Source of the DNA: Filimonas lacunae
GTDB taxonomy: Bacteria; Bacteroidota; Bacteroidia; Chitinophagales; Chitinophagaceae
Reading direction: 5' to 3'
Assembly: GCF_002355595.1 (NCBI RefSeq)
Contig: NZ_AP017422.1
Span: forward strand, 6,576,823 to 6,640,822
Length of the DNA stretch: 64,000 bases
Shown: one piece after another, positions 40,062 to 45,804 of the stretch
How positions within the stretch are numbered: position 1 is the stretch's first letter
Layout of the letters: the number at the start of each line of letters is the position of its first letter
Made by a program: the position numbers and the translations under genes
The notes under the pieces: generated by a model
The model's input: only the letters and a program-made list of their open reading frames with translations
Told to the model about the DNA's origin: nothing
The model's database searches: none

Positions 40062-41513
40062 TTACTCCCCTTCTTCTGGTGTTTTCCGGGTAGGCTTCCA
40101 ATTAGCAGCTCCCGCTCCGTCCATTTTTACAATGCGTGGATAGAACTTGCCAATGGTATTTACTAACTGTTTTTGTGCAGCCATCACTGCGTCAATATCC
40201 TTATAAGCAAAAGGCGCTTCATCCAATCCGCCGCTCAGCAGGGTTACATGATGCTTTCGCAACTCGGCCTGCAAGGCGCTATGTGTGGTGGAAGTGGCAG
40301 CATGCGAGCGGCTGAATTTGCGTCCCGCACCATGCGATGCAGATGCTATAGAAGCAGGTTCACCCTTGCCTTTTACAATGTAGCCTGGTGCAGTCATAGA
40401 ACCGGGAATAATACCCAGCACATCTTTACCAGCTGGTGTAGCCCCTTTACGGTGCACTATTACTTCCCGCCCTTCATGTATCTCTTTCCAGGCAAAATTG
40501 TGGTGGTTTTCAACAATACGCAACGGCTTTCGTCCAAGTTGTTTTGATAGTTTTTGGTGTATAACATCGTGGCAGGCCTTGGCATAATCACCCGCCAGGT
40601 TCATAGCCAGCCAGTATTCTATCCCTTCCTGTTCATCCAACGATAACCACGAAAGATTTTGTGCTGCGGAAGGCAGTAGCCGTTTTTGCCTGGCTACTTG
40701 TGTATAATGGTTAGCAACGGTTGCTCCCAAACCACGGGAACCTGAGTGAGATAGTATGCCCAGGTATTTACCTGCCGGCACCTGTAGTACGGCATCGGCT
40801 TCTTCAATCACCACTTCGCCAAATTCAACAAAGTGATTACCAGAACCAGAGCTACCTAACTGCCTGGCTGCTTTCGCCTGCAATTGCGTTAATATATGCA
40901 GATCGTTAAACAAAGGACTATCCAGCACTTCATGCTCAGTACCCTGTTCAAATTCACGACCGGTACCAAACAAAGTGCTTTTTCGCAAGGCCTGCACCAG
41001 AAAGGGTTCTTTCCTGGTTAAGTCTCTCACATCAATATCGTAAATGCTTAAACACATGCGGCAGCCAATATCCACGCCTACCGCATAGGGAATAACCGCA
41101 TTGTCTGTTGCCAGCACTCCGCCAATAGGTAAGCCATACCCCGCATGTGCATCGGGCATTAAAGCCCCCGCTACCGTTACAGGCAGCCGGGCCGCGCCAT
41201 TCATTTGCCGGATAGCAGCTTCTTCTATAAAATCAGCGCCAAACACATTATAGTGCAGCCCATTTTCAGGCAGCTCTATTTGTGATTTTTCTTCCGGCAC
41301 CTCTTCCATCAGCTCATTTGCTATTTTACACAACACATCATTATTAGCAAATGTGTTGGGAGCTGAAAGAATGTTTTTTAATATATCCAGTGCCGCTTCT
41401 TTAGTATAATGTTTGTAATGCTTTTCCATTACCTGCATGGCGATACTTACCACCGGGCCTTCTTCGTAGCCTAATGCCCGTATCTCCTTTGCTTTTAAAT
41501 TTAACCTTGCCAT
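40062..41513 (-). CDS. rtcB: RNA-splicing ligase RtcB
   Basis: 483 aa. Key family segments are present: AGALMPDAHAGYGLPIGGVL, YAVGVDIGCRMCLSIY with the metal-binding Cys, GSSGSGNHFVEFGE, LSHSGSRGLGATVANHY and the guanylate-accepting His region SIASASHGAGRKFSRSHA. It joins RNA ends carrying 2',3'-cyclic phosphate or 3'-phosphate to 5'-OH, using GTP and manganese. Length is typical for the longer bacterial form. It ends a minus-strand operon of slipin, AAA ATPase, unknown protein and RtcB. No RtcA cyclase, RtcR regulator or archease gene is visible in the window. Confidence 0.95.
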   Translation of the reverse strand: MARLNLKAKEIRALGYEEGPVVSIAMQVMEKHYKHYTKEAALDILKNILSAPNTFANNDVLCKIANELMEEVPEEKSQIELPENGLHYNVFGADFIEEAAIRQMNGAARLPVTVAGALMPDAHAGYGLPIGGVLATDNAVIPYAVGVDIGCRMCLSIYDIDVRDLTRKEPFLVQALRKSTLFGTGREFEQGTEHEVLDSPLFNDLHILTQLQAKAARQLGSSGSGNHFVEFGEVVIEEADAVLQVPAGKYLGILSHSGSRGLGATVANHYTQVARQKRLLPSAAQNLSWLSLDEQEGIEYWLAMNLAGDYAKACHDVIHQKLSKQLGRKPLRIVENHHNFAWKEIHEGREVIVHRKGATPAGKDVLGIIPGSMTAPGYIVKGKGEPASIASASHGAGRKFSRSHAATSTTHSALQAELRKHHVTLLSGGLDEAPFAYKDIDAVMAAQKQLVNTIGKFYPRIVKMDGAGAANWKPTRKTPEEGE

Positions 41514-41586
41514 TGTACCACTAGTATTCCTCTTCTTTCAGTTGTTCCAGCATTTGGAGAAGAGGTATTTTTTTATACGTAATCTG

Positions 41587-42252
41587 TTAAAAATCATAGA
41601 TGCAACGTCTTGTGTTGCAACCATATTGAATTTTCATGAGCTTCTTATCCCAGTTTCTTTGCGTAAATATTTCATCAATCTCCTGCAACCGCTGCTCTAT
41701 CACTTCGTCCCTGATGCGCGTTCGGGTAATCATATGAGGACGTATACGTAAAACAAAACGCCACTTTTCTTTCAGTACATACTTATAATATTGAAAAGTG
41801 CCATTCCTGTCTACTACCTGTGCCTGGTAAAACTGGTTCCTCTCTTTTGGAGTAAGCTTCCATCTTTTAATATCATGTTCTGAAAGCGAATGAACATGCT
41901 GTTCTACCGGCCCCCATTTATAGCGTCCTTTCTTTTTCTTTTTTTGAAAGAAGCTTTTGTCATGGTGATATACAGTAGTATTCACCATTTGAAGTATACG
42001 TTCATAAAACGCAGCATCTTTACTTCTTGCCACATCTTCCCTTAATACAAAAGACCTTTTGTACCCACGCATTACCGGTGGACGTAGTTCCATCCATCCC
42101 AGGTTATTTTGCTGTTCATACAAAGCATCTTCTGCCCTCCTCAACGCCAATAGTTTCTTTTCAAAATCTTTTCGCTTAATGCGATTCTTTTGACGTTCAG
42201 TACGCATTCTAAAACATTGCAGATCTATAGCCTGCAAAAATTCGTTGTGCAT
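41587..42252 (-). CDS. Hypothetical basic protein in the rtcB operon, 221 aa
   Basis: I do not recognise a family. The product is strongly basic and helix-rich at its N-terminus (RMRTERQKNRIKRKDFEKKL, LALRRAEDALYEQQNNLGWM), then carries a poly-Lys patch (FFQKKKKKGRYKW), followed by a hydrophilic C-terminus with VLKEKWRFVLRIRPHMITRT and two Cys/Arg-rich residues near the end (YGCNTRRC). Features fit an RNA- or ribosome-binding protein. It lies 73 bp before rtcB and 116 bp after the AAA gene. A poly-A/T stretch inside the gene (minus strand A-rich codons) is a possible slippage site, but the frame is intact. Confidence 0.7.
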   Translation of the reverse strand: MHNEFLQAIDLQCFRMRTERQKNRIKRKDFEKKLLALRRAEDALYEQQNNLGWMELRPPVMRGYKRSFVLREDVARSKDAAFYERILQMVNTTVYHHDKSFFQKKKKKGRYKWGPVEQHVHSLSEHDIKRWKLTPKERNQFYQAQVVDRNGTFQYYKYVLKEKWRFVLRIRPHMITRTRIRDEVIEQRLQEIDEIFTQRNWDKKLMKIQYGCNTRRCIYDF

Positions 42253-42368
42253 GTTTCACCTTTTGATACCGTTTCATCAATACACTATCCCGTAGTGTGT
42301 TTTGTGCCATTAGGAGGAATATGTTATAGACTTTCATTTTGCAATGTTTTAGAATGGTGAAAAATGTA

Positions 42369-43448
42369 TTAAGCAGATTGTTGGGAAGTATGGTTTCTAA
42401 AACCAATTACCTGCACCTGCTTGTTGTCGAATTCTACCTCGTTCTGGTTGCTGATTTCGGCGAGGGTCATAGGCTGGTCTATTACCTTGTTAAAACCCAG
42501 ATGATTACTTAACTGCTGGGCTTTAGCTGTACTTAGTTTGCCAAATTCGTATCGCGCAATCAGCCTTCCTTTTCTGAGCAAGGCACTATCTACCAGGGTT
42601 AAGGCGCTATTGAATGTGCATATCAATTGCACGTTCAGAAAATCGGCCAGTAGCCCATCGGAAATGTTTAATAGGTTAGAAACGGCCGAACTGCTGTTAC
42701 TTCTTCTGTCCATGATGATGTTTTCGGCATCTTCAATCACCACTACCGTATTAGGATTTTTAATGAGCAGATCGATAAATTCGGGGTTCATTAAATTACC
42801 TGCCACATTGGGCGACAGAAACAGTACACGCTTCTTTAATTTACAGATGAGATAACGGAGATAGGTGGTTTTACCGGTACCCGGCAAACCATGCAGCAGT
42901 ACAATTCCTTTATCGTTCTTTTTGTTTAAACGGGTACGGATTAACTCATCTACCTGTTTAAAATCGTCTTCATAGAAAAGATCAATATTCAGTTTTGTAC
43001 GCTTTATCTCCATCGACTGTAAGCTTAAACCGGAATTGCCTGTTACAATGAGGTTAATTTCCAGCGGCTCGCGTTTTTCGCGTTCTTTAAACTGATGAGA
43101 TAAAGCTGCCACCTGCATCACAAATTCACTTTGAGTGCCATTGTGTAAAATTTCACAATAGCTTTCTTCAAATTCTATGATACAATTGTTGGCGAGTATT
43201 ACCACCGTTTTATCAAATTCAAACGCTTTACGTTTAGGCTTGTACCATCTGTATTTATGTGTAGATCTTATGAGGTCTTTAAATTTTTCGCAAAAGGCAT
43301 CGTATAGCTTTTCTCCATTTACACTGTTAATACAGTCTACACTGGGTAATTGCTTAAAGCAAAACCAGTACAGTGTGTTTACCTCCAGGAAGTAGTTATC
43401 AAAAAGCTTGTCTATATTAATATTTTCGCCTTCGTATAAATTGTTCAT
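42369..43448 (-). CDS. BCS1-like AAA+ ATPase
   Basis: 359 aa. The N-terminal 170 residues are an unclassified domain, partly beta-rich. The AAA core begins around residue 180: Walker A GLPGTGKTTYLRYLIC, Walker B NTVVVIEDAENIIMDRRSNS, sensor-type QLICTFNSALTLVDSALL and an Arg finger in LLRKGRLIARYEFG. The pattern of a short AAA core next to an N-terminal domain, without further domains, is like BCS1/bacterial homologs that remodel membrane proteins. In this operon it sits between slipin and the unknown protein, and membrane association through slipin is plausible. Biochemistry unknown. Confidence 0.85.
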   Translation of the reverse strand: MNNLYEGENINIDKLFDNYFLEVNTLYWFCFKQLPSVDCINSVNGEKLYDAFCEKFKDLIRSTHKYRWYKPKRKAFEFDKTVVILANNCIIEFEESYCEILHNGTQSEFVMQVAALSHQFKEREKREPLEINLIVTGNSGLSLQSMEIKRTKLNIDLFYEDDFKQVDELIRTRLNKKNDKGIVLLHGLPGTGKTTYLRYLICKLKKRVLFLSPNVAGNLMNPEFIDLLIKNPNTVVVIEDAENIIMDRRSNSSSAVSNLLNISDGLLADFLNVQLICTFNSALTLVDSALLRKGRLIARYEFGKLSTAKAQQLSNHLGFNKVIDQPMTLAEISNQNEVEFDNKQVQVIGFRNHTSQQSA

Positions 43449-43564
43449 ATAATATTTATTGAAACAGAATAATGGATAGATTTTCTATTGTATGTCTATC
43501 CTTCGCTATTTCATTACCAAAGCACGCATAGTGGTAGTTTTTATTTTTAAAACAAGTTGTTTTG

Positions 43565-43590
43565 AAACAGGCTATAGAAATAGCCTGTTT
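43565..43590. repeat. Hairpin between slipin and AAA genes
   Basis: Perfect 11-bp stem AAACAGGCTAT, loop AGAA, ATAGCCTGTTT, within the 153-bp gap. On the minus strand it is followed by CAAAACAA, not a T-run, so it may be an attenuating or stabilising structure rather than a full stop. Confidence 0.6.
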
Positions 43591-43601
43591 GTTTTAAGGG
43601 T

Positions 43602-44705
43602 CTATTTTTGGGTCACAAAAATCTGGCGCAGCTGATCAATTAACACACCGTTGCCGCTAAGGCTGATAGTGTTAATTTTATCTGCAATCTTTTCTACGTA
43701 CTCCATTTCTTTTAACTTAAACAGCATCCCGTTTTCTTCCATCAGCTTTGCAGTATTCAGTAAGCTACGGGTGCTGGCAGTTTCTTCGCGCCGCATAATA
43801 GTGTTGGCTTGTGCCTTTTTCTCAGCAACCAGCACCTGGTTCATAATATCCCTTACATCGCCCGGCAATATCACATCCCGCATACCAAAACTGGTTACAG
43901 TTACACCCAGCGTATCGGTAGTTGCAGCAACGGCCTTTATAACAGTAGCACTCATCATATCCTTTCTTTCCAGTAACTCGTCCAGAGAAAGGGTTCCGAT
44001 GTATTCACGCAATGCCAATTGAAAGGCCAGGTATAACTGGCGCTCATAATCTTTGTTATGCAGCAACGCAGTTTCTACGTTATTTACCAGGTAGGTGGCA
44101 TGGGCATTGACACGCAGCGCTGCTTTATCACGGGTTAAAATTTCCTGGCCGTTTATTTCCAGTTGTTGCTGCCTGGTATCCACCTTTTTTACCTGAATAG
44201 GCTTAAACCCTTTCCACCAGTAATACACACCACTTGCCAGCTGTTGTATATACTGCTCGTTTACAAACAAAAGCGCCTTTTCGTAGCTTTCTACTAGCAC
44301 GTTTTTGATGAAAGGAGCCAGTAAAGCGCTGGTAAAAGCATCCTCGCCAATAGGCTCGGTGATTTCCGGCTTACTGATATCTGCTTTAACAAAGTCGTAC
44401 ACTATCGGGCTGTTTTTCCAATAAGTGTAACGGCCTGCGGTAAGCACTTCTTTTAGTAATCCGTTCTCGTAGCGCAGTACCAATTCAGTACTTTTCACTT
44501 CTACTACCTGCAATGCTTCTTTTAATATATTATCCTGCAGAAGCACGTTTAATTCGCATGACGGATAAAACGGCTTTGTGATATCATACATTTTTATGGT
44601 CTGTGACCATGTAATCCAATAAGTGCCCTCGGTTAACATTTTCTGGTAAACTCCATTCCTGAATACCAGTGCTACTTCCAGGGCTTCGATTTTTACCCTT
44701 TTCAT
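43602..44705 (-). CDS. Slipin (SPFH/band 7) family protein
   Basis: 367 aa. Two band-7 like halves are visible: KIEALEVALVFRNGVYQKML and VVEVKSTELVLRYENGLLKE, both followed by G.YTYWK or G.YYWWKG. The core then runs RINGQEILTRDKAALRVNAH-type strands into the coiled-coil helices QVLVAEKKAQANTIMRREET. No strong N-terminal transmembrane anchor is visible, which is unusual compared with classic slipins. Slipins form membrane scaffolds. Their genes are known near RtcB RNA-repair loci in other bacteria. It is the first gene of the operon, transcribed from the non-coding island upstream. Confidence 0.85.
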   Translation of the reverse strand: MKRVKIEALEVALVFRNGVYQKMLTEGTYWITWSQTIKMYDITKPFYPSCELNVLLQDNILKEALQVVEVKSTELVLRYENGLLKEVLTAGRYTYWKNSPIVYDFVKADISKPEITEPIGEDAFTSALLAPFIKNVLVESYEKALLFVNEQYIQQLASGVYYWWKGFKPIQVKKVDTRQQQLEINGQEILTRDKAALRVNAHATYLVNNVETALLHNKDYERQLYLAFQLALREYIGTLSLDELLERKDMMSATVIKAVAATTDTLGVTVTSFGMRDVILPGDVRDIMNQVLVAEKKAQANTIMRREETASTRSLLNTAKLMEENGMLFKLKEMEYVEKIADKINTISLSGNGVLIDQLRQIFVTQK

Positions 44706-45115
44706 ATAAGTTGTTTTTTAAAGATTCATTTAATAAAAGCCAGAGCCGTTTACCCGGTTGAACAATACGGATGTATTGTATTTGCAAGGTTATACTGTAT
44801 AATTCCTGCATGATAGCAGTCTTTTGCAAGACAGCATCCTATACATTGCACTATCCAGCGATCGTCTTACCTGTTACAATACATGCAAAGTGTTATTCCA
44901 CCTCAGACCAACGCCCTTCCCCCAAAGATTGCCGGCTGTGGGTATAACAACCCTGGCTTTATTTGCATCTTTTTTTCGCAGTGATGCCACTGCGCATTGT
45001 TCAGCATTTTACAACTGAATTAGAATGAGCCATCGTTTTCAGTGATGGGGTTGTTAAGGTTTTCAATCTTAACGATACACACTTGCTCTTTCCAATATGA
45101 GCTCCACGAACAGCC

Positions 45116-45213
45116 AGTTCATGAGAGGAATCGAACCTCTAAAACGCACACCAGCGTTGAGTGTCAGGCAATCCATTACTGTAACAGCATACATGTGGTT
45201 ACTACCCATGCAC
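45116..45213 (-). ncRNA. tRNA-like RNA element
   Basis: On the minus strand a T-arm (AGAGG, loop TTCGATT, CCTCT; 45124-45140) carries the canonical loop and GG/CC closing pairs. It is immediately followed by CATGAAC (45117-45123), which pairs with GTGCATG (45207-45213) as a 7-bp acceptor-like helix with one G-A mismatch. A D-arm-like stem GTAAC/GTTAC with a 12-nt loop (45181-45202) and a variable-arm-like stem AACGC/GCGTT (45143-45158) lie between. The element is 97 nt plus a discriminator T, followed by GGC, not CCA. No clean anticodon arm forms. It is therefore probably not an ordinary tRNA but a tRNA mimic or degraded tRNA. It sits upstream of the rtcB operon, on the same strand. Confidence 0.5.
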
Positions 45214-45272
45214 TGCCGGGCTATAGTTGAAACCCGGGCATAGTTTTACCAGTAACAGGAATGCCTGTTTTT

Positions 45273-45296
45273 CTTTCTGCATGAGAAAGCTTTTTT
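45273..45296 (+). terminator. Plus-strand terminator-like hairpin in the island
   Basis: CTTTCT, loop GCATG, AGAAAG followed by C and six T. Just upstream another short stem AACAGG-4-CCTGTT (45254-45269) is followed by TTTCTTTC. Together they suggest a plus-strand transcript ending here, antisense to the tRNA-like element. Confidence 0.45.
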
Positions 45297-45346
45297 ACTC
45301 AGCAGCACGTTTGCTGAGTAATGATATAATAGCATTGCTTAACAAT

Positions 45347-45378
45347 AAAAAACCCGGTAAGCTTTTGACTAACCGGGT
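45347..45378 (-). terminator. Minus-strand intrinsic terminator
   Basis: Perfect arms ACCCGGT and ACCGGGT (45352-45358, 45372-45378) followed on the minus strand by TTTTTT ATTG. It would end an RNA containing the nested hairpin at 45442-45505. Confidence 0.75.
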
Positions 45379-45441
45379 GCAACATTTTTATCAATAATCA
45401 CTAATGATAAAACGGTTTACACCGCGGTAGTATGGATGTTC

Positions 45442-45505
45442 CAAAGCAATACATCGCCTGTAACACAGCGCTGTTGAATTGCCATTCAACACTGTGTTTG
45501 CTTTG
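45442..45505 (-). ncRNA. Nested long hairpin, candidate structured RNA
   Basis: Three coaxial perfect arms: CAAAGCAA/TTGCTTTG (45442-45449, 45498-45505), AACACAG/CTGTGTT (45462-45468, 45492-45498, sharing one base) and TGTTGAAT/ATTCAACA with a 4-nt loop (45472-45479, 45484-45491). The orientation is given by the minus-strand terminator 64 bp downstream. No coding frame explains this; it is a strong candidate for a small RNA. Confidence 0.5.
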
Positions 45506-45552
45506 AGCTTTAGCGGATAATATGTTTTGTATCTGCAACAAATGATAGCAAT

Positions 45553-45635
45553 AAAAAACCCCGCATTGTTTGCGGGGCTTCTTGTATAATCAGTTTTTAT
45601 TAACCTAATTAAACGCGCTACATGCCCCGCAAACA
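45553..45635 (-). promoter_or_regulatory. Terminator/antiterminator attenuator
   Basis: On the minus strand the segment TGTTTGCGGGGC (45624-45635) is perfectly complementary over 12 bp to GCCCCGCAAACA (45567-45578). The latter also forms the 5' arm of a terminator hairpin (CCCCGC, 7-nt loop, GCGGGG; 45559-45577) followed by six T (45553-45558). Only one of the two structures can form at a time, the hallmark of an attenuator or riboswitch expression platform. A sensor domain would lie at about 45640-45800. It lies after the acetyltransferase gene stop and upstream of the island. Confidence 0.55.
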
Positions 45636-45804
45636 GCCGATCCCACAGGACGGAAGCTATTTGTTTTGATGATATGTAGTTTTATGCGTAACACTTTTAT
45701 TCTTTTTTGTTGATGCAAAGCTGTGACTATTTTTTCAAATGCCAAAACAATTTGTTAAAAATATTTTTAATTCATTGTTGCGATTTATCTCAGCTAATTA
45801 TCAT

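Follow-up and report, generated by a model that had tools for sequence, protein, structure and literature searches.

We consider here an RNA-repair locus of Filimonas lacunae, in which the genes for a slipin, an AAA ATPase, a basic orphan protein of 221 amino acids (U221) and the RNA ligase RtcB follow one another on the minus strand, downstream of a 1.1-kb island. The locus lies in a window of 64,000 nucleotides (nt) (NZ_AP017422.1, assembly GCF_002355595.1, forward-strand positions 6,576,823-6,640,822), and all feature positions below are counted within this window. The island holds two conserved elements, a transcription attenuator and a structured RNA of about 560 nt. With a probability that we put at roughly 0.6, the locus is a tRNA-damage response operon under ribosome-mediated attenuation. 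Its leader would be a near-universal sensor of tRNA shortage, selected to spell almost all 20 amino acids ahead of the antiterminator, and would open a replace-and-repair operon (a one-of-each tRNA kit together with RtcB and RlaP) along with a slipin particle built on an RNA of tandem permuted tRNAs.

A first-pass annotation of this DNA had described four same-strand genes behind 1.1 kb without any gene. The four open reading frames (ORFs) are confirmed on the minus strand (Table 1), with support from Pfam for RtcB, AAA and Band_7. The island (44706-45804) indeed contains no ORF of 90 or more amino acids, no tRNA according to ARAGORN and no Rfam family at the gathering score, but a conserved leader ORF of 29 codons lies inside it. 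The fold energy of the island pieces is by itself unremarkable (z of -0.74, -2.35 and -1.20). The island is nevertheless beyond chance, because a 227-nt piece of it is conserved in the two other genus genomes searched (82% and 70% identity) and the remaining part aligns with covarying RNA of relatives.

The whole attenuator spans 45694-45553 (minus strand) and consists of the leader ORF, an antiterminator strand within the end of this ORF and an intrinsic terminator, which stand in this order both in the window and in its relatives. Ahead of the leader is a promoter-like block, a putative promoter of the Bacteroidota type. In the window, the antiterminator segment folds with -26.6 kcal/mol, as compared with -20.0 kcal/mol for the remainder when the ORF is masked and the terminator included; the unmasked whole leader folds with the terminator formed. 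A leader profile made from the genus-conserved part matches 106 loci, which correspond to 80 distinct elements. An ORF of 26-34 codons is present at the expected place in 77 of the 80 elements and in 73 of 800 shuffled copies, where the ORFs were chosen by position, length and start codon, and diversity played no part. Dropping the leaders that are more than 80% identical leaves 71 nonredundant leaders. In every one of these an intrinsic terminator lies 20-36 nt past the stop codon, as against 4 of 355 shuffles. The complementarity between the ORF end and the terminator arm averages 7.6 base pairs (bp) versus 5.4, with at least 7 bp in 52 of the 71.

Model R2, built from 37 leaders with the window left out, recovers the window at 91.4 bits (E = 2.8e-25) as the sole match in that genome. 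Across the family, 71 of 195 genomes contain R2 matches that score 37 bits or more, at 81 places in total. The matches outside the family in the phylum sample all remain below 28 bits, and those at L357-L361 are weak and are excluded from the members. Several flavobacterial loci (L226, L228-L231, L237 and L245), picked by eye and without a control, show ORF-plus-terminator candidates 5' of a tRNA array, often as tandem pairs. The window itself has a second ORF of 22 codons (MAIQQRCVTGDVLLWNIHTTAV, 45417-45485) with a terminator-like hairpin (45347-45378, both on the minus strand), possibly a second attenuator in tandem.

The 71 leaders encode on average 17.55 of the 20 amino acids, with at least 18 in 41 leaders and all 20 in 4 leaders. 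The corresponding controls give 14.34 (protein windows), 15.36 (pooled leader composition), 14.36 (other frames) and 14.80 (intergenic ORFs, n = 266). Two peptides with 20 of 20 amino acids each, MLRIQLHIETVNWFSPKADYTVCGACNAAG (L185) and MNRKHLNIEAQYGWSPIGDFTVCGACYAEE (L009), agree in 15 of 30 aligned residues. When residues are shuffled within the alignment columns, the mean drops from 18.0 to 16.42 (n = 39; none of 5000 shuffles as high), and for sequences less than 35% identical it drops from 17.13 to 15.66 (n = 15; none of 4000). The excess diversity sits in codons 2-21 (15.21 versus 13.11; 0 of 3000) and is absent from codons 22-30, which overlap the antiterminator (6.79 versus 6.68, p = 0.17). 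This is the prediction for a stall sensor, because only a ribosome that halts earlier can free the antiterminator, and it indicates that the coverage is probably maintained solely in the codons 5' of the antiterminator. Leaders held out of the set (n = 18) have a mean of 17.28, and seven of them reach at least 18 amino acids.

We turn to the large structured RNA. Among 42 loci other than the window, 14 are dropped, 13 in which no pair of T arms is recognised at the spacing expected and one (L115) as a duplicate of L141; alignment A3 also leaves out L058, L119, L130, L138 and the window, so that 24 relatives remain. Their consensus contains two tRNA mimics. Mimic 1 has an open anticodon-like stem around a T arm, a closed acceptor hairpin and a D arm, and mimic 2 has a T arm, a closed acceptor hairpin, a D arm and a closed anticodon arm, in this order. 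Compensatory changes on both sides are found in 31 of 37 pairs, covariation being a check that the first-pass annotation had proposed for the island. The cells of the alignment pair in 95.6% of cases, as compared with 70.6% in shuffles (none of 500 as high) and 38-48% in slid structures, a test that is biased toward the consensus structure since this structure came from the same alignment. An ordinary tandem-tRNA reading is disfavoured: its acceptor pairs form in 46% of the cells, against 92.5% and 96.6% for those of the permuted reading. The anticodon stem of mimic 2 can be aligned in 21 of the 24 rows. The triplets in these rows are of 14 kinds, U33 is present in 15 rows and position 37 is a purine in every one of the 21; the anticodon thus appears to vary freely with the look of a tRNA retained. 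Additional covarying helices extend the full RNA to about 560-600 nt.

The window forms 8 of 9 pairs of helix P2, 11 of 11 of P3 and 12 of 15 of the long-range closing helix. The anticodon-like stem of its mimic 1 has 0 of 4 pairs at the aligned columns and 5 of 5 in the local fold, and its mimic 2 has 0 of 6 acceptor pairs and 0 of 4 D-arm pairs at the aligned columns. Model R1 of the large RNA scores the window at 28.4 bits (E = 8.8e-8) in mimic 1 only (R1 positions 12-69). This score alone is not decisive, because ordinary tandem tRNAs reach about 85 bits, and the identification of the window RNA is carried by its position and by the other helices. In 296 phylum genomes, R1 gives nine matches of at least 97 bits, all with a slipin within about 550 nt downstream, and the next 21 loci retrieved (L151-L171) have ordinary tRNAs at the match. 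For slipin loci of named Bacteroidota, the 80 top entries of a longer list were taken. By a hand count, 76 of these have an R1 match (E ≤ 1e-12) 5' of the slipin; the four exceptions are L216 and L247, which have too little sequence, and L211 and L222, which lack a match. The T-arm motif occurs at least once within 1 kb in all 30 of the first slipin-upstream stretches, the window included, where nearby array tRNAs can contribute. Rfam offers no known family for this RNA, since nothing reaches threshold in the window and 12 relatives give just tRNA.

The genes that accompany these two elements in relatives provide the functional context. The AAA protein has a match, which may be weak or partial, in 63 of the 195 genomes searched in the family. 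Slipin is matched in 74 of 191, and 43 of these matches reach E ≤ 1e-80. Loci were collected around AAA (40) and around slipin (19). In them the place of the island is often taken by a tRNA array of up to 18 tRNAs (L116), and the genes come in subsets of an RNase H-like gene (PF04308), AAA, U221, slipin, RlaP (PF10127), RtcB and sometimes Ro60 (TROVE). The 80 slipin loci give lower bounds, as several contigs are short: rtcB lies within the retrieved stretch in at least 49 and three or more tRNAs within 6 kb upstream in at least 38, and there are at least 32 with the RNase H-like gene, 22 with AAA, 9 with U221, 8 with RlaP and 3 with Ro60. U221 searched alone occurs in 18 of 195 genomes, the window genome counted; rtcB is its neighbour in 13 of the 18, rtcB or another locus gene lies within 1.5 kb in 16, and 2 have none. 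The leader is followed in relatives by tRNA arrays, rtcB, Ro60, AAA or efflux genes. A further 27 leader loci (L329-L355) were inspected as well. Downstream of the leader, rtcB (fragmented in L333) or two or more tRNAs are present in 19 of them; a lone tRNA, a MATE pump alone and DinB alone account for one locus each, and two loci stop at a contig edge. L356 combines a 15-tRNA array with RNase H-like and DinB-like genes and has no slipin within the 10 kb retrieved.

This linkage, together with the covariation, upholds the proposal that the locus serves RNA repair and has a non-coding RNA of its own, and likewise the expected co-occurrence of U221 with its neighbours. That the four proteins and the RNA form one system stands in part: subsets are linked in relatives, but one or more genes are often missing, and the genus relative G002 keeps the leader and lacks slipin, U221 and the large RNA. 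The attenuator at the head of the island and the tRNA arrays in its slot had not been foreseen. On the whole, the observation of the first-pass annotation is confirmed and its interpretation partly supported.

The arrays look like one-of-each kits biased toward split-box tRNAs, which are frequent targets of nucleases. After removal of redundancy, and without L151 and L153-L171, the arrays with five or more tRNAs number 45; they comprise 425 tRNAs and show two duplicated anticodons. Of the 45 arrays, 37 carry a tRNA for Gln, 35 for His, 34 for Arg, 33 for Phe, 29 for Lys, 28 for Asp and 26 for Asn, as against 7 for Val, 6 for Gly, 3 for Ala and 1 for Thr.

From the anatomy, conservation, covariation, amino-acid coverage and gene linkage computed above, we infer leader translation, stalling, induction, the signal and the roles of the RNA, slipin, AAA and U221 as follows. 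Transcription would begin ahead of the short leader gene. As long as tRNAs are plentiful, the ribosome would reach the end of the leader and occupy the antiterminator strand, so that the terminator forms. A shortage of nearly any charged tRNA, caused by a ribonuclease toxin that cuts tRNA or by translation that is otherwise slowed, would halt the ribosome early, because the leader of the relatives spells almost every amino acid; the antiterminator would then pair with the terminator arm and the operon would be read. Relatives would then produce a tRNA kit, with each anticodon represented about once, together with some of the RNase H-like, AAA, U221, RlaP, slipin and RtcB proteins. The slipin and the permuted-tRNA RNA would most likely form a particle that gathers broken tRNAs for RtcB or serves as a bait for the attacking nuclease, and it is taken as soluble because no membrane segment is seen. 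Such a particle may be compared with a vault (SPFH shoulder, TROVE partner, small RNA). The window copy keeps the promoter-like block, the leader frame, the antiterminator, the terminator, the large RNA and the four proteins. It is a derived copy, with no tRNA array, a leader of 15 amino acids and an eroded second mimic; its working is therefore inferred mainly from relatives, since the tRNA kit and part of the leader coverage are missing. If this mechanism is true, a leader that samples almost every tRNA is a simple answer to what switches bacterial RNA repair on, and attenuation, which is usually tied to one amino acid or drug, is extended to a general alarm for tRNA integrity. As to SPFH proteins and Y-RNA-like RNAs in repair, the tandem permuted-tRNA RNA offers a defined structural target and a concrete link between slipins and RNA.

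Several points weigh against this mechanism. The evidence is computational throughout and comes from sequence. The antiterminator match is below 6 bp in 5 of the 71 leaders and below 7 bp in 19. Since 20-28 nt separate the antiterminator strand from the last base of the stop codon, a ribosome paused at this codon may leave part of the strand uncovered. The protein-coding signal is modest (834, 844 and 1191 changes at the three codon positions; among single-change codons 528 synonymous and 549 not). The coverage is incomplete, because Trp, the rarest residue, is found in just 26 of the 71 leaders (Asp, the next, in 49), and the column-shuffle test takes no account of the tree. At three of the 27 additional loci with a leader, no repair gene is recognised; one of the three, L353, has a weak leader. 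The window leader lacks Asp, Glu, Gln, Trp and Tyr, and its 15 amino acids are not above the control ORFs (14.8). The second window ORF supplies Asp, Gln and Trp, to which we give no weight because random peptides of such length often supply them. An alternative that we consider unlikely is an attenuator that, like those of the antibiotic type, answers to translation stress in general and is induced by any slowing of the ribosome; the amino-acid diversity of the leader would then be incidental or serve another purpose. A MATE efflux gene does lie behind the leader in L342, L343, L350 and L351, a hint that drugs which inhibit translation may be involved; leaders that respond to drugs are well known, and the tRNA array of Anabaena responds to ribosome-targeting antibiotics (PMC10272220). 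The diversity, however, exceeds four kinds of controls and the column shuffles, and does so only in the codons before the antiterminator, which counts against this alternative because a drug sensor would not require diversity.

For the large RNA, the question is whether it acts as a separate molecule. It could be a cis-acting 5' untranslated region that controls the slipin by the state of the tRNAs, with no separate particle RNA, which we regard as doubtful, if somewhat less so than the drug-type leader. The nine best phylum matches upstream of slipin and the end of the window RNA, about 28 nt before the slipin start codon, fit such a role. On the other hand, the permuted topology is shared with the separate RNA YrlA, a second full mimic with a freely variable anticodon is present, and no competing terminator was noticed in the large RNA, where alternative folds were not searched. 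The island might also be a decaying tRNA array, with pseudogene tRNAs from a lost kit, as relatives carry real arrays in the same slot, ARAGORN finds 0 tRNAs in the window island and mimic 2 of the window is eroded. We disfavour this as very improbable, given the 92.5% and 96.6% pairing of the permuted acceptors versus 46% for the ordinary tandem reading, and given that the large RNA coexists with intact arrays in relatives.

Turning to the proteins, RtcB has the motifs DAHAG, GVDIGC, GSGNH, HSGSR, ENHH and SHGAGR. U221 is basic (50 Lys/Arg versus 28 Asp/Glu) and may, in view of this character, bind RNA. It has no match in Pfam, NCBIfam or PADLOC at E ≤ 0.1, in PHROGs at E ≤ 0.01, in PDB sequences at E ≤ 1 or in plasmid records, and its predicted structure (predicted local distance difference test score 88.3) has no PDB fold match by Foldseek at E ≤ 0.001. 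For the AAA protein, L329, L330, L348 and L350 have a protein of about 141-216 amino acids after the leader, which in L329 and L350 matches its N-terminal part; this part seems to occur also as a separate protein. Slipins and stomatins typically have an N-terminal membrane segment, and the first-pass annotation had proposed that slipin anchors the system to the membrane. In the window, the slipin carries the SPFH/Band-7 domain (PF01145), with stomatin structures as its best PDB sequence matches, but by hydropathy only it has no hydrophobic segment, N-terminal or other (top 19-residue mean 1.12), so the anchoring is not borne out; 2 of 17 relatives exceed 1.6. It has an N-terminal motif in three copies, and a search of phage records gives one match, weak and partial. 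A strong hairpin (ACAGGCTATTTCTATAGCCTGT, 43565-43588, minus strand) lies directly 3' of the slipin gene, perhaps a processing site or a weak terminator before the AAA gene.

Table 1. Features of the locus, with positions counted within the window.
Feature	Position	Strand	Basis or remark
Promoter-like block before leader (TTG ... CTTTG)	45716..45750	-	TTTGC invariant in 37 aligned leaders
Leader ORF, GTG start, 29 codons, VLRIKLHIIKTNSFRPVGSAVCGACSAFN (first residue read as M)	45605..45694	-	ORF and model R2
Antiterminator strand TGTTTGCGGGGC within leader ORF	45624..45635	-	12 bp complementary to 45578-45567
Intrinsic terminator, 7-8 bp GC stem and T-run	45553..45578	-	
Structured RNA, about 560 nt	44733..45295	-	aligned with 24 relatives; consensus fold
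tRNA mimic 1, circularly permuted, hairpin at variable-arm position	45079..45164	-	model R1, alignment, local fold
tRNA mimic 2, eroded	45000..45073	-	T arm and acceptor-like hairpin kept; D arm lost; anticodon-like hairpin altered
Slipin / Band_7 protein, 367 amino acids	43602..44705	-	Pfam PF01145, 1.3e-25
AAA ATPase, 359 amino acids	42369..43448	-	Pfam PF00004, 2.8e-10
U221, orphan basic protein, 221 amino acids	41587..42252	-	ORF; own homologue search
RtcB RNA ligase, 483 amino acids	40062..41513	-	Pfam PF01139, 1.2e-80; motifs

Burroughs and Aravind in 2016 reportedly described repair systems in which RtcB is accompanied by SPFH/Band-7, RlaP and TROVE proteins and in which a tRNA-like RNA is linked to Band-7. 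The present loci have these components in common, and in the window the Band-7 gene stands with rtcB and adjoins a tRNA-like RNA. The present account covers, from sequence, the leader attenuator, the tandem permuted fold, the tRNA kits, and AAA and U221 as partners; the slipin-linked RNA may be the tRNA-like RNA of 2016. In the Salmonella rsr-yrlBA-rtcBA operon, RtcB also adjoins an RNA with a tRNA-like domain, and the operon is tied to damaged tRNAs (PMC7790460). It differs in that the window genome lacks RtcA and has Ro60 elsewhere, and in that we predict a leader peptide where Salmonella has the activator RtcR, which was not searched for here. The Y RNA YrlA (RF02553; PDB accession code: 6CU1) has a T arm, a closed acceptor-like hairpin and a D arm, i.e., a circularly permuted tRNA (PMC11472068). 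This topology is found in the relatives and, by local fold, in mimic 1 of the window, whereas the large RNA has two mimics in tandem within about 560 nt, is linked to slipin and in the window reaches 22.1 bits with the YrlA model of Rfam against a gathering score of 69.

The Anabaena TrcR regulon combines a tRNA array (the 26-tRNA trn operon), rtcB, slipin and an AAA gene, which are co-repressed, with translation-targeting antibiotics inducing the array (PMC10272220). These genes would likewise be under translation-stress control here, by a predicted attenuator and at one locus, in contrast to a protein repressor and scattered genes in Anabaena. The P. aeruginosa rtc locus shares the SPFH gene and has RtcA, RtcB and RtcR (PMC13086221), and the roles of RlaP and TROVE are treated elsewhere (PMC7824862). 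Leader attenuation of amino-acid operons is described for a flavobacterium (PMC9723704), with leader ORF, antiterminator and terminator as here; those leaders sense one or few amino acids, whereas the present ones cover nearly all. Among the papers listed in literature searches, there was no recognised account of an all-amino-acid leader or of the slipin-linked RNA.

The window genome is a single contig of 7.81 Mb with 70 tRNA matches, among which the positions reveal no array. As the first-pass annotation had it for the locus, the rtcB gene comes without rtcA, which has 0 matches across the whole genome, where the same search is positive in 5 of 14 control genomes. The claimed absence of Ro60 holds at the locus but not for the genome, since a TROVE/Ro60 gene lies about 0.2 Mb away (L109, G000:C1:6838000-6853000) in a region that has no match with R1 or the leader search. 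RtcB-family genes number three in all, the two others being at G000:C1:7374199-7375281 and G000:C1:7141380-7142438.

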